From Parvibaculum sp. (lineage in GTDB: Bacteria > Pseudomonadota > Alphaproteobacteria > Parvibaculales > Parvibaculaceae), in NCBI GenBank assembly GCA_030645235.1, contig JAUSMV010000012.1, positions 558,001-622,000 of the forward strand: a stretch of DNA of 64,000 nt, read 5' to 3'. This document shows positions 3,599-62,563 of this stretch, in pieces (the first letter of the stretch is position 1; every line of letters starts with the position of its first letter). A model generated the notes under the pieces. It saw only the letters and a program-made list of their open reading frames with translations, did not search any database and had not been told where the DNA came from. The translations under genes were made by a program, and so were the position numbers.

Positions 3599-4740
3599 TC
3601 CGTCTTGCCCGCACCAATCGCAGCCAAATTGCCCAATGGTGGTGGACCGTCGATAAGTGGACGCTCTTTGGTCTTTTCGCACTGATGCTGATCGGTGGTG
3701 TGCTCGCGCTCGCGGCCAGTCCGTCTGTGGCGATGCGAATCAATTTGCCGCCGTTCCATTTCGTGTACAGGCAGCTCTTTTTCTTCATGCCCGCGACGGC
3801 CGTGATCATCGGCGTATCGCTTTTGAATGTGCGTCAGGTGCGCCGTCTCGCGGCTGTGGTTTTCCTCGTTGCTTTCACGCTGATGGCGATGACGCTGGTG
3901 TTCGGACCGGAAGTCAAAGGCGCGCATCGCTGGCTCCAGATCGGGCCGCTGGCGATCCAGCCGTCCGAATTTGTGAAGCCGTCTTTCATCGTGCTTGCCG
4001 CCTGGATGTTTGCAGAAGCGCAGAGAATACAAGGGTTTCCGGGCACGATCATCGCCTTGGTGCTCTATGCCATGGTGGTGTCGGTGCTCGCTTTGCAGCC
4101 TGATTTCGGTCAGCTGATGCTTGTCACGCTGTCCTTCGGGGCGATCTTTTTCATGGCCGGACTGTCATGGCGCTGGATCGGTTCGCTCGCCGCGATTGCG
4201 CTTATCGGTGCCGTTGCGGCCTATAGTTTGAGCCCGCATGTGACGAGCCGCGTGGACCGTTTTCTCAATCCGGAATCAGGTGACACCTATCAGATTGACC
4301 GCGCGCTCGACGCGTTCCATACAGGTGGAATCTTGGGTCGCGGACCGGGTGAAGGCGAAGTCAAACGCATTCTTCCTGATGCCCATACAGACTTTATTTT
4401 TGCGGTGGCTGCCGAAGAATACGGCGTCATTTCGGGGCTCATCATCATCGGCATGTTCTCGTTTATCGTTTTGCGCACGTTGCGTCGTGCGATGGTTGAG
4501 CAAGATCTTTTTGTCCAGTTTGCCTCCTGCGGTCTCGCCTCGCTGTTCGGCTTGCAGGCGCTCATCAACATGGCCGTGAACGTCAATCTCATTCCGGCCA
4601 AAGGCATGACGCTGCCGTTTATTTCCTATGGCGGCTCGTCGCTGATTGCGCTCGGCTTCACCATGGGCATGTTGCTGGCGCTCACGCGTCGCCGCGTCGG
4701 CTCCGGCATGGCCCCCAACGGTAAAAGGAGGCCTGCATGA
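3595..4740 (+). CDS. ftsW: Septal peptidoglycan glycosyltransferase FtsW (SEDS family)
   Basis: FtsW is the SEDS-family membrane glycosyltransferase that polymerises lipid II at the septum together with the class B PBP FtsI. The 381-residue protein has about ten hydrophobic segments. SEDS motifs are present: EVKGAHRWLQIG followed by QPSEFVKP, the large extracellular loop with DAHTDFIFAVAAEE holding the conserved acidic residue, and PFISYGGSSL near the end. The position between murD and murG identifies it as FtsW rather than RodA. It starts at the ATG that overlaps the murD stop by 4 bp. Confidence 0.97.
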   Translation: MIRLARTNRSQIAQWWWTVDKWTLFGLFALMLIGGVLALAASPSVAMRINLPPFHFVYRQLFFFMPATAVIIGVSLLNVRQVRRLAAVVFLVAFTLMAMTLVFGPEVKGAHRWLQIGPLAIQPSEFVKPSFIVLAAWMFAEAQRIQGFPGTIIALVLYAMVVSVLALQPDFGQLMLVTLSFGAIFFMAGLSWRWIGSLAAIALIGAVAAYSLSPHVTSRVDRFLNPESGDTYQIDRALDAFHTGGILGRGPGEGEVKRILPDAHTDFIFAVAAEEYGVISGLIIIGMFSFIVLRTLRRAMVEQDLFVQFASCGLASLFGLQALINMAVNVNLIPAKGMTLPFISYGGSSLIALGFTMGMLLALTRRRVGSGMAPNGKRRPA

Positions 4741-39419: not shown

Positions 39420-39464
39420 GATATCGCCACGATCGCAAATCCCTCAATTCTGACGGGAAAATAA

Positions 39465-39780
39465 GTGGAGGTTTCTGTTGCCAGGTACCTCCGAACCCCG
39501 CCTTACCCTGCAAAGGGCAAGGACTTCAAGTGAAGCGCTAGCGCTGCTTACGCGGCGATCGCAACTTCTGCATAGTTGTCATTGGCAACTATCAAACGGC
39601 CCGCTAACGGCGGAACCATACCGGGCAAAAGAAAAGCTTTTACACCCTCGTCGATCCTAGTTCGCCCCCATTTGGATCTGCCATGACAGATGGAAAATGG
39701 TGGAGGCGCCGGGTACCGCCCCCGGGTCCGAATGGCTTATTCTGCAGTCCGTTTATCGCCATAGTCAGCCGAAGCTGACA
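39465..39780 (-). ncRNA. ssrA: tmRNA (ssrA), circularly permuted two-piece form
   Basis: Read on the minus strand, the acceptor piece comes first, with a T-arm-like segment and a 3' end CGCCTCCACCA (CCA ending at 39698). A 28-base intervening segment follows, then the coding piece starting GGGGGCGAACTAGGATCGAC at 39669. GGGGGC can pair with GCCTCC of the acceptor end. The tag reading frame at 39586-39548 encodes ANDNYAEVAIAA and a TAA stop. A hairpin (CTTGCCC / GGGTAAG) and a final GGAGGT / ACCTCC pair lie downstream. The permuted order with internal CCA is diagnostic of alphaproteobacterial tmRNA. Outer ends are approximate. It rescues stalled ribosomes, and tagged proteins go to ClpXP with SspB. 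Confidence 0.95.
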
Positions 39781-39785
39781 CCCTC

Positions 39786-39813
39786 TATATAGGCGGTCGG
39801 GCGCGGGAATCAA
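39786..39813 (-). promoter_or_regulatory. Likely ssrA promoter
   Basis: On the minus strand, TTGATT (39813-39808) and TATATA (39791-39786) are 16 bp apart, ending a few bases before the acceptor-RNA region. This spacing and position suit a housekeeping sigma promoter for ssrA. Confidence 0.6.
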
Positions 39814-39842
39814 AGGGCTGTGAGACCGTCACAAATCTATTT

Positions 39843-59446: not shown

Positions 59447-59570
59447 GGCTCTCCCCACTTGAGGGGGGAGGGTTGGGTGGGCGTGAAGCTTCAGGTAGGT
59501 GTTTTACGAGGATGCCCTCCCGCCGGGATCGTGAGTACGATCCGACCTCCCCTTCAGGTGGGGAGGAGAT
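59447..59570. repeat. Composite palindromic element between ilvC and the racemase-like gene
   Basis: A left hairpin CTCCCC / GGGGAG (59451-59470) is followed by GGTTGGGTGGGC. After a spacer come GCCCTCCC, a perfect inner palindrome GGATCGT GAGT ACGATCC (59526-59543) and a right hairpin CCTCCCC / GGGGAGG (59546-59566). The architecture resembles the element at 61494-61652 and the tail GGTTGGGTG resembles repeat R1. No ORF is supported inside. Confidence 0.7.
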
Positions 59571-60692: not shown

Positions 60693-61412
60693 TCAGGCGT
60701 AGAGATAAGAGGCAAGGCCGGTGCGCTCGAAAGGGTGCCACTGGCCTTCTTTTTGCGCGAGGCGGTCCGCAATGGCCCAAAGCACCATGGCGTTGACGCC
60801 CATGCCGATATGGCTCGACGTGACTTCGATATTATCCGTCATCGGCGTTTCCTGTTCCAGACAGGCTTCCCACGGCACGACGCCGTCGCTTTTGGAATAG
60901 ATGGCGGTGCAGGGCACAGGCGGCGGCGGACGCAGACGCGCGGCAAGCGCCGGATCAGGTTCGCCTTCGATGCGGTAGCCTGCGCCGAAGGGCGAACCCA
61001 ATGTGATGACCTGACGCGTCAGCGGGGGAAATTGCCGCGCGAGTTCGCGCGCATAGATGCCGCCGAGCGACCAGCCGACAATGGAAACCTTGCGCTGATA
61101 GCGGTCAGATAATTCTTTGAAGCGGGTGCGGATACCGTCGCGGATCTCGGTGCTCGGTCCCCAGTTGCGGCCAAGCTTCCACGGATGAACCTGATAGTCG
61201 AGCGCCTGCAGATAGCGGCGCAGCACGAAAGTGGACGCATCATCGCCGAACATGCCGGGCAGCACGAGAACAGGATGCCCGTCACCGCGCGGCGCTTGCA
61301 GCAGGATCGGCAGCGCAGGGCCGAGCGTCGCCAGCTCAACGAAGATACCGAGTTCGCCGAGACGGTCGAAGATACCGCGGTCATCTTGCAGTTCAGGGCG
61401 TTTGGGAGGCAT
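60693..61412 (-). CDS. Lipase/esterase-like alpha/beta hydrolase
   Basis: A 239-residue cytoplasmic-looking hydrolase: HPVLVLPGMFGDDASTFVLR (oxyanion region), nucleophile elbow SIVGWSLGGIYAREL with Ser in Gly-Trp-Ser-Leu-Gly, VITLGSPFGAGYRI, acidic residue in AIYSKSDGVVPWEAC and the His in VTSSHIGMGVNAMVL. The pattern SPFG plus SDGVVPW resembles triacylglycerol lipase or PGAP1-like hydrolases; substrate unknown. It faces away from its neighbours across the palindromic element. Confidence 0.82.
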   Translation of the reverse strand: MPPKRPELQDDRGIFDRLGELGIFVELATLGPALPILLQAPRGDGHPVLVLPGMFGDDASTFVLRRYLQALDYQVHPWKLGRNWGPSTEIRDGIRTRFKELSDRYQRKVSIVGWSLGGIYARELARQFPPLTRQVITLGSPFGAGYRIEGEPDPALAARLRPPPPVPCTAIYSKSDGVVPWEACLEQETPMTDNIEVTSSHIGMGVNAMVLWAIADRLAQKEGQWHPFERTGLASYLYA

Positions 61413-61493: not shown

Positions 61494-61652
61494 TCCACCT
61501 CCCCCTTGTGGGGAGGTCAAAATATTTGTCTTCAAATATTTTGGGTGGGGGTATTGATGCTCAATATAGATTCCGTGTTCAACGAGGGGTCGTGTCCCCC
61601 ACCCAAAAAATCTGGAGTAGATTTTTTGACCTCCCCACAAGGGGGAGGTGGA
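61494..61652. repeat. Nested inverted-repeat element (about 159 bp)
   Basis: Two arms in inverted orientation, 61494-61551 and 61596-61652. Each starts outside with TCCACCTCCCCCTTGTGGGG, itself a hairpin, then AGGTC, an inner AT-rich palindrome and GGGTGGGGG. Inner palindromes differ: AAAATATTTG / CAAATATTTT in the left arm and AAAAAATCT / AGATTTTTT in the right arm (read inverted). The 44-bp centre has no ORF. It lies between the CDF exporter stop and the lipase gene. Confidence 0.85.
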
Positions 61653-61660
61653 GTTTATTG

Positions 61661-62563
61661 CTAATGCCCGTGCTTCTCATCGGGGCAATCGCCCTGCTCA
61701 ATCTGCACCGTCGCATGTGCAATCCCGAACTTTGAGGTGAGGCGCGCGTTGATGTCGCGCAGCGCCGTCTCGGCATTGGTGTCGGGCTTTAATCTTGCGT
61801 GCAGCGTGGCGACTGGGCGGGCGGAACCCAATGACCAGGCGTGAACATGATGGATGTCAGCGACGCCTGCGACGTGGCCGAGCAGGTCGCTCGTGATCGT
61901 TGCTGGGTCGAGGCCTTCCGGCGTGCCTTCCATCAGGATATGGGCGGCATCGCGCGTGACGTTCCAAGCGCTGCGCAGGATCAGCACGGCGACGAGGACG
62001 GAGAGGATCGGGTCAATCGGCATCCAGCCTGTTTGCAGAATGATGATGGCCGCCGCAATCGCCGCCACAGACCCCAGCATATCGCCGAGCACATGGAGTG
62101 CCGCGCCGCGCGTATTGAGGCTTTCGCCTGCGCCGTGAAGCAATACGTATGAGGCGACATTGATGCCGAGGCCGCAGATCGCGACGATGAGCATGGGCGT
62201 GGCGAGAACATCCGTTGGCTGACTAATGCGCAAAGCGGCTTCAACGACAATCCAGATAGAAAGCGCGATCATGGTGGCGCCGTTGAGGAAGGCCGCTAGG
62301 ATTTCGGCGCGGTGATAGCCGTATGAGTGCGCACCGTCGGCAGGGCGGCGGGCAAAGCGCACGGCGAGCCATGCCAGCGCCAGCGCGCCTGTATCTGTGA
62401 GCATGTGACCTGCGTCAGCGATCAGCGCGAGTGAACCTGACCACCAGCCGCCGATGGCTTCTATAACCATGAACCCGCCGGTGATCCACATGGCCAGCGC
62501 GACGCGGCGCTCCGATGTGGCGCCGTGGCTGTGGCCGTGATGATCGTGGGAATGAGCGCTCAT
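61661..62563 (-). CDS. CDF-family cation (zinc-type) efflux transporter
   Basis: A 300-residue CzcD/ZitB-like exporter. The N-terminus is His-rich (HSHDHHGHSHG). Transmembrane metal-site residues are in LALIADAGHMLTDTGALALA (His/Asp) and in HVLGDMLGSVAAIAAAIIIL (His/Asp). Six spans precede a C-terminal cytosolic domain (IHHVHAWSLGSARPVATLHA) with His residues. It would export Zn(II), Cd(II) or Co(II) by proton exchange. The ATG overlaps the ArsR stop. Confidence 0.94.
   Translation of the reverse strand: MSAHSHDHHGHSHGATSERRVALAMWITGGFMVIEAIGGWWSGSLALIADAGHMLTDTGALALAWLAVRFARRPADGAHSYGYHRAEILAAFLNGATMIALSIWIVVEAALRISQPTDVLATPMLIVAICGLGINVASYVLLHGAGESLNTRGAALHVLGDMLGSVAAIAAAIIILQTGWMPIDPILSVLVAVLILRSAWNVTRDAAHILMEGTPEGLDPATITSDLLGHVAGVADIHHVHAWSLGSARPVATLHARLKPDTNAETALRDINARLTSKFGIAHATVQIEQGDCPDEKHGH

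Follow-up and report, generated by a model that had tools for sequence, protein, structure and literature searches.

A triplex-type palindromic repeat of Parvibaculum linked to DUF559 nuclease genes, probably a gene-less derivative of a small mobile element

The 159-bp palindromic element at positions 61494 to 61652 of the window (the 64,000-nt stretch of Parvibaculum sp. DNA analyzed here) is best explained as a gene-less, non-autonomous mobile repeat derived from a DUF559 element that the encoded nuclease may mobilise, a reading to which we assign a probability of about 0.6. Its two ends are different versions of one structured unit: after a pyrimidine/purine hairpin come a loop that is itself a hairpin of variable sequence and then a third strand of purines, able to fold back as an intrastrand DNA triplex. 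Repeats of this triplex type have so far had neither a mobility gene nor a spreading route, as far as the accessible text of PMC4666352 goes, and DUF559 is a nuclease family of unknown function. The presence of DUF559 between the repeats in many lineages supplies a candidate enzyme for the repeats and a candidate substrate for the enzyme.

The element is built from two inverted units of 55-56 nt that face each other. Its arms at 61494-61525 and 61621-61652 are 97% complementary over 32 nt, and together with a second complementary pair (61530-61551 with 61596-61617) they bear out the two inverted arms of the original prediction. The left unit runs ACCTCCCC-CTTGT-GGGGAGGT, C, AAAATATTTG-TCTT-CAAATATTTT, GGGTGGGGG, and the right unit, on the minus strand, runs ACCTCCCC-CTTGT-GGGGAGGT, C, AAAAAATCT-ACTCC-AGATTTTTT, GGGTGGGGG. 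By their letters the outer hairpins are identical, as had been claimed, and the inner hairpins differ in sequence, each being self-complementary (AAAATATTTG with CAAATATTTT on the left, AAAAAATCT with AGATTTTTT on the right). The features are as follows.

61494-61652, no strand: whole two-arm element with inverted arms; the same layout is found in other copies of the genome
61495-61550, plus: left unit, inner stem of AAAATATTTG type; match to model R1, 74.6 bits
61497-61517, plus: left outer hairpin, with pyrimidine arm ACCTCCCC, loop CTTGT and purine arm GGGGAGGT; from the letters
61519-61542, plus: left inner hairpin, the second loop of the triplex layout; from the letters, DNA fold and covariation across copies
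61543-61551, plus: left third strand GGGTGGGGG, running antiparallel along the purine arm with T opposite A; 7/7 triads, shuffle chance 0.00135
61552-61595, no strand: 44-nt spacer separating the units; from the letters
61596-61604, minus: right third strand; 7/7 triads, shuffle chance 0.00105
61597-61651, minus: right unit, inner stem of AAAAAATCT type; match to model R1, 76.7 bits
61605-61627, minus: right inner hairpin AAAAAATCT-ACTCC-AGATTTTTT; from the letters and covariation
61629-61649, minus: right outer hairpin; from the letters

Folded as RNA, the element reaches -107.1 kcal/mol against a shuffle mean of -50.95 (sd 3.96, n = 200; z -14.2), and none of the shuffles is as low. Its neighbours are two minus-strand ORFs: one at 61661-62563, which adjoins it with its 3' end and which by eye we take to be a cation-efflux-like gene, and one at 60693-61412, whose start faces it and which is presumably hydrolase-like, likewise named by eye. 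The claim that the element contains no ORF has to be narrowed: ORFs of at least 60 aa do cross it, and none is supported as a gene. Inverted terminal repeats, shortness and the lack of a gene give it the features of a MITE; no target-site duplication was established in the flanks, which were read by eye and whose counterparts in congeners are too diverged. No Rfam family matches over the element at its gathering score, and mir-2545 (39.4 bits against a cut-off of 94) was dismissed as a long-hairpin coincidence. Elsewhere in the window, two weaker unit-like hairpins between two ORFs at 59448-59569 are perhaps a divergent second copy (R1 scores of 23.0 bits at 59518-59569, minus strand, and 11.8 bits at 59448-59477, plus strand), and an alphaproteobacterial (permuted) tmRNA lies at 39464-39818 on the minus strand.

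The repeat is dispersed through its host genome (3.83 Mb, 86 contigs). The proposed search for other copies returned 71 blastn rows, both strands counted, and 125 matches at E ≤ 0.001 to a covariance model of the unit (R1), the weakest being short-loop relatives or the hairpin only. From the blastn matches we took 38 stretches, of which 36 yielded 61 units by pattern; L037 and L042 hold only a solo or broken piece. Among unit pairs lying within 1 kb of each other by position, 47 face inward, 5 outward and 5 along the same strand, and the spacing is at most 130 bp in 46 of the 47 inward pairs. With the inner stem varying while its pairing is kept, these matches corroborate the predicted MITE/REP-like structured repeat.

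The original prediction had read covariation from two unlike stems within one copy, which is insufficient; the same idea holds when tested across aligned copies. The alignment comprised 59 of the 61 units (one false match and one odd unit omitted), and the test used 56 distinct rows, all related sequences, with 17 pairs and 500 shuffles. Paired cells amount to 93.1% against 83.7% in the shuffles, 11 of the 17 pairs change on both sides (6.9 in shuffles), 106 cells are changed on both sides (34.4), and the covariation score is 0.294 (0.138); for each of these measures 0 of 500 shuffles came as high. The fifth measure, which counts further pair types, stays at the level of the shuffles (22 observed, 21.1 shuffled; 186/500). 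The measured pairing is lowered because one stem type is misaligned by one column, and sliding the partners by 1-3 columns drops it to 36-67%. Parsed unit by unit (60 units), the inner pairs comprise 506 Watson-Crick, 5 G.T, 1 A.C and 4 other combinations; over the first six inner pairs the Watson-Crick fraction is 0.978, compared with a mean of 0.754 and a maximum of 0.811 in 1000 half-swaps between copies. As a means of telling RNA from DNA, the five G.T and one A.C are too few.

The suggestion that the inner stem is a variable module is upheld by all 20 parsed two-arm copies, in each of which the two arms carry unlike inner stems. In 19 of them an arm of AAAAAATC/AAAAAAGC type is combined with one of AAAATATT, AAACGGCG or another type; in the remaining copy GAAACGCT is paired with AAAATATT. 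A near-perfect palindrome of 159 bp would be hard to replicate, and unlike ends may lessen the difficulty. A further palindromic repeat, with a GGTCCGGTGGACC core, is joined to a unit half at L186 (1135-1229), and has relatives in the host genome at C58:130555, C58:871630 and C55:246775.

Although the original prediction could not name the type of element, the hairpin with its GGGTGGGG tail is arranged as in an intrastrand triplex motif whose second loop is a hairpin, and its linked gene is DUF559. The pyrimidine arm is followed by the purine arm and then by the purine third strand GGGTGGGG in register, with the variable inner hairpin as second loop. Read from the sequence and set beside the accessible text of Holder et al. 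(PMC4666352), this layout is that of their class II motifs. Laid antiparallel on the purine arm with T opposite A, the tail forms 7/7 triads in both window units. In subfamily 2, the arm GGGAGGG gives 7/7 triads with a GGGAGGG tail (shuffle chance 0.027) or 6/7 with GGGCGGG (0.044), the latter lowered because of the C opposite A in the third strand. Across the host genome the third strand is in register in 40 of 62 hairpins, where 1.3 would be expected. The second loop here, 24-25 nt long and itself a hairpin, lies outside the 1-6 nt loop range of the ITxF search; near DUF559 in other lineages it measures at most 6 nt in 89 of 118 in-register hairpins. The repeat is a variant form of the intrastrand triplex repeats (TM_ECO or PIT repeats), which the accessible text of Holder et al. 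(2015, PMC4666352) reports from E. coli and from over 260 prokaryotes. The same text states that footprinting gave no support for a stable triplex in cells, a point against the reading favoured here.

The link to DUF559 emerged from genomes in which a unit pair encloses one small ORF. In all three such genomes the ORF is DUF559, with a PF04480 match of E 6.4e-43 for the one enclosed ORF tested. The host genome has three DUF559 genes. That at C58:780257 is flanked by the two inner-stem types that the window element also combines, although the left outer hairpin there is replaced by another palindrome, and those at C58:417658 and C58:1287392 lie among subfamily 2 units and among short-loop units, respectively. 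The sole inward unit pair of this genome with a wider gap (1 of 47) encloses DUF559.

Beyond the host genome the association is strong. PF04480 occurs in 18 of 27 genomes of the genus, and 49 of 56 sides of the genus loci have a perfect stem of at least 8 bp no more than 130 bp away, against 10 of 390 distant windows (28 of 31 loci, omitting three near contig ends). The corresponding counts are 33/50 sides against 6/343 distant windows in the class (25 of 29 loci scanned) and 110/158 against 33/887 at 80 named DUF559 loci from many phyla, which are the best-scoring ones and include several MAGs whose phylum labels may be wrong. A pyrimidine 5' arm is found in 101 of these 110 stems. When the third strand is also required, 61 of the 80 named loci have the motif within 200 bp and 6 of 80 beyond 500 bp, and the third strand is in register in 118 of 132 pyrimidine/purine hairpins near DUF559, against 7.1 expected from shuffled flanks. 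Outside the class the triplex motif occurs within 200 bp at 18 of 20 DUF559 loci (20 of 23 listed) and beyond 500 bp at 1 of 20. The unit-type triplex test succeeded at 24 of 27 best-scoring phylum loci, 22 of 28 class loci and 20 of 31 genus loci, several of the genus misses arising because the gene is off its assumed place or the tail contains a C. In a matched control restricted to the 162 of 187 loci that were long enough, a pyrimidine/purine hairpin lies within 220 bp at 151 of 162 DUF559 loci, compared with 23 of 486 pairs of distant windows. These locus samples are best-scoring ones that share ancestry, and the sets partly overlap (L280 and L348 are the same stretch).

The same association is seen between genomes. 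In the class sample R1 matches occur in at least 68 of 385 genomes, a lower bound because at most 14 candidates were scored per genome, and PF04480 in 125 of 385; DUF559 is present in 56 of the 68 unit-positive and 69 of the 317 unit-negative genomes (odds ratio 16.8, p 5e-21, kinship ignored). The 12 unit-positive genomes with no DUF559 match count against mobilisation by DUF559, as does the congener G003, which has many copies (41 blastn rows) yet no DUF559 match. Co-evolution of nuclease and hairpin is weak (Mantel r 0.127, reached by 1 of 1000 permutations). In 72 of 177 cases the 7-nt arm is identical to that of the nearest DUF559 protein, compared with a fraction of 0.081 in random pairs; common descent could account for this. 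At L169, L170, L174 and L178, four DUF559 genes from different genomes lie at one possible recurrent insertion place, beside what we take by eye to be the start of carB. In the literature searched, which lacks most subscription papers, we did not find the link between DUF559 and triplex repeats: the papers found on DUF559 and on intrastrand triplexes had none in common, a search for Vsr endonuclease as mobile with repetitive extragenic palindromic sequences found nothing, and one for DUF559 with palindromic returned only unrelated papers.

Modeling indicates that DUF559 (≈115 aa) is a small nuclease of the Vsr/I-Bth0305I fold. An AlphaFold2 model from 26 proteins (pLDDT 89.7) has its best structure match in 3hrl of Neisseria gonorrhoeae (Z 16.9), and also matches the I-Bth0305I homing endonuclease domain 3r3p (Z 12.9, rmsd 2.6 over 94 residues) and Vsr 1cw0 (Z 11.0, rmsd 2.2 over 99 residues). 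The DUF559 gene of E. coli is ycjD; the NCBIfam match to the YcjD family is below its cut-off. In E. coli K-12 (NC_000913.3) this gene lies 166 bp from the triplex-type motif CCCCTCACCCTAACCCTCTCCCCAGAGGGGCGAGGGG (3908-4261 and 3705-3741 of L414, respectively), which the perfect-stem scan missed because of one mismatch. Compared by description with the accessible text of Holder et al., CCCCTCACCCTAACCCTCTCCCCAGAGGGGCGAGGGG fits their type A, with second loop TTA and the one mismatch. One place covers at least 80% of the ycjD block in 3362 of 5426 E. coli genomes, and the region differs between strains. Strains SMS-3-5 and 19AR1321, which lack ycjD, were considered as an empty site and rejected, since in them fabI is followed by other genes, one for a regulator and one for efflux.

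Congeners differ in the presence of the repeat. Four of them (G004, G015, G020 and G006) lack the element in the interval between the syntenic gene pair, as judged by gap length and letters, and R1 at E ≤ 0.01 finds no match in the window-site loci of these four or of G003. In six others (G005, G010, G016, G022, G023 and G024) units lie instead beyond the efflux-like gene, on its far side, as placed by coordinates. G003, the nearest congener of those compared, retains only a 5-bp remnant at the window site, so a solo hairpin there was rejected; at a second, orthologous site (site 1 of the cluster) it has a clean solo outer hairpin, ACCTCCCC-TCAAG-GGGGAGGT, at a third it shares the full element, and at a fourth the element is absent. 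The DUF559 block at C58:780257 is absent from G004 and G015. Of 33 within-genome DUF559 pairs compared, three (in G115, G035 and G143) align over 467-503 bp at 66-70%; these alignments start and end at the outer hairpins, outside which the flanks are unrelated and nothing matches. Diverged unit-DUF559-unit elements of ≈450-500 bp thus stand at unrelated sites in three genomes; no movement was seen. Element-free sites in congeners (L242, L221 and L219) often hold another palindromic repeat, of the GTCATCCCGGG... or GTCACCCCGG... type, as if such sites collect repeats.

The presence of units around DUF559 genes in many bacteria suggests that DUF559 spreads the repeats, and on the likeliest reading the units would fold in the cell, DUF559 would cut them and the element would move. 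The autonomous form would be an element of ≈450-500 bp with like ends around one DUF559 gene of ≈115 aa. A unit made single-stranded by replication or cruciform extrusion would fold, and its third strand could fold back to give an intrastrand DNA triplex. The DUF559 nuclease would recognise the folded end and nick or cut there, and repair would then copy or insert the element elsewhere, with gene-less copies moved in trans. Slippage across the near-palindrome may sometimes delete the inside and leave one outer hairpin; against mobilisation, the solo hairpins are equally compatible with plain deletion.

That clean solo hairpin in G003 also speaks for a different account, in which the units, as unstable repeats, owe both their spread and their shrinkage to replication slippage and recombination, and DUF559 either rides along as a passenger or acts in repair as a nuclease trimming such structures, without moving them. 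The persistence of copies in G003 without DUF559 is in keeping with it, as are, in their accessible text, the attribution of variation at the E. coli motifs to slippage and repair (PMC4666352) and the proposal that a Caulobacter DUF559 protein, VsrA, is a mismatch-repair nuclease (PMC12907096). Linkage to DUF559 at tens of bases across many lineages argues against it, as does the scarcity of stems beside other ORFs of the same 80-locus set (13 of 116 windows, against the 110 of 158 DUF559 flanks), and slippage alone does not explain a gene with both its ends at unrelated sites. We regard this account as rather unlikely.

Two further readings seem less probable. Movement of a MITE or REP by an ordinary transposase (RAYT/Y1 or DDE), missing from the genome or not found, would suit the inverted ends, the length below 200 bp and the many copies. 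The RAYT/TnpA-REP check proposed in the original prediction came back empty, however: PF01797, which the transposase search covered, has no match in the host genome, whereas 5 of 14 control genomes searched in the same way do have one, and the gene inside the wider-spaced elements examined is DUF559. We consider such a transposase improbable. Action of the units as RNA, as terminators, 3'-end stabilisers or small RNAs, appears very doubtful to us. The RNA family whalefall-1 (RF01762), filed as a small RNA and known only from a metagenome in the accessible text of PMC2864571, matches the window arms at 27.7 and 24.2 bits, below its cut-off of 37. In 20 loci searched, one related unit exceeds this cut-off (L106 1499-1553, 46.5 bits) and nine fall below it (26.6-34.6 bits), and the units are close to gene ends. 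On the other side, earlier tests of the E. coli motif gave no promoter or terminator activity, as cited in the accessible text of PMC4666352, the third strand obeys DNA triplex rules, and an RNA role leaves the inverted pairs (47 inward, 5 outward) and DUF559 unexplained. The matches of RF01762 to these units suggest that it describes the same sort of unit and that its small-RNA tag may be wrong; the third strand of its consensus gives 6/6 triads, although with a shuffle chance of 0.067.

Returning to mobilisation by DUF559, we judge the chances evenly balanced that these repeats belong to a previously undescribed kind of mobile element, with heterotypic intrastrand-triplex hairpin ends, a Vsr-like DUF559 gene of ≈115 aa as its sole gene and a length of ≈450-500 bp. 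Its gene-less derivatives of 100-160 bp would then be the triplex repeats of many bacteria, including the E. coli TM motifs beside ycjD. If so, few autonomous mobile elements would be smaller, it would work without a DDE, HUH or recombinase enzyme, and whalefall-1 would need a second look. The reading is directly testable, including in E. coli K-12.

The repeat shares features with several known systems. Like whalefall-1, the unit has two tandem hairpins and a GGGUG tail, but the window units score below the curated cut-off of that family. Free-standing homing endonucleases of the Vsr-like I-Bth0305I type resemble DUF559 in nuclease fold and as mobile nuclease genes; they differ in that structured inverted ends and gene-less derivatives occur here, with no fixed insertion site shown. 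MITEs are likewise short and gene-less with inverted ends and an apparent longer relative with like ends, although the longer relative here has a nuclease and not a transposase, and a target-site duplication is not established. REP/BIME repeats with RAYT also combine palindromic units, inverted pairs, many copies and a proposed partner enzyme; the partner here is instead a Vsr-like nuclease, with no Y1 transposase in the genome, and none of the 61 listed units has, by eye, a GTAG-type tag at the palindrome foot. The closest likeness in layout is to the TM/PIT repeats, for which the accessible text of PMC4666352 describes the same three-strand order, intergenic sites, inverted pairs and deletions that leave a hairpin, and in which all five E. 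coli inverted pairs combine two different second-loop types, as do the 20 of 20 copies here. The Parvibaculum repeat departs from them in its second loop, a hairpin of 24-25 nt in place of 1-6 nt, and, whereas that text reports no mobility genes close to such motifs, in its linkage to DUF559.
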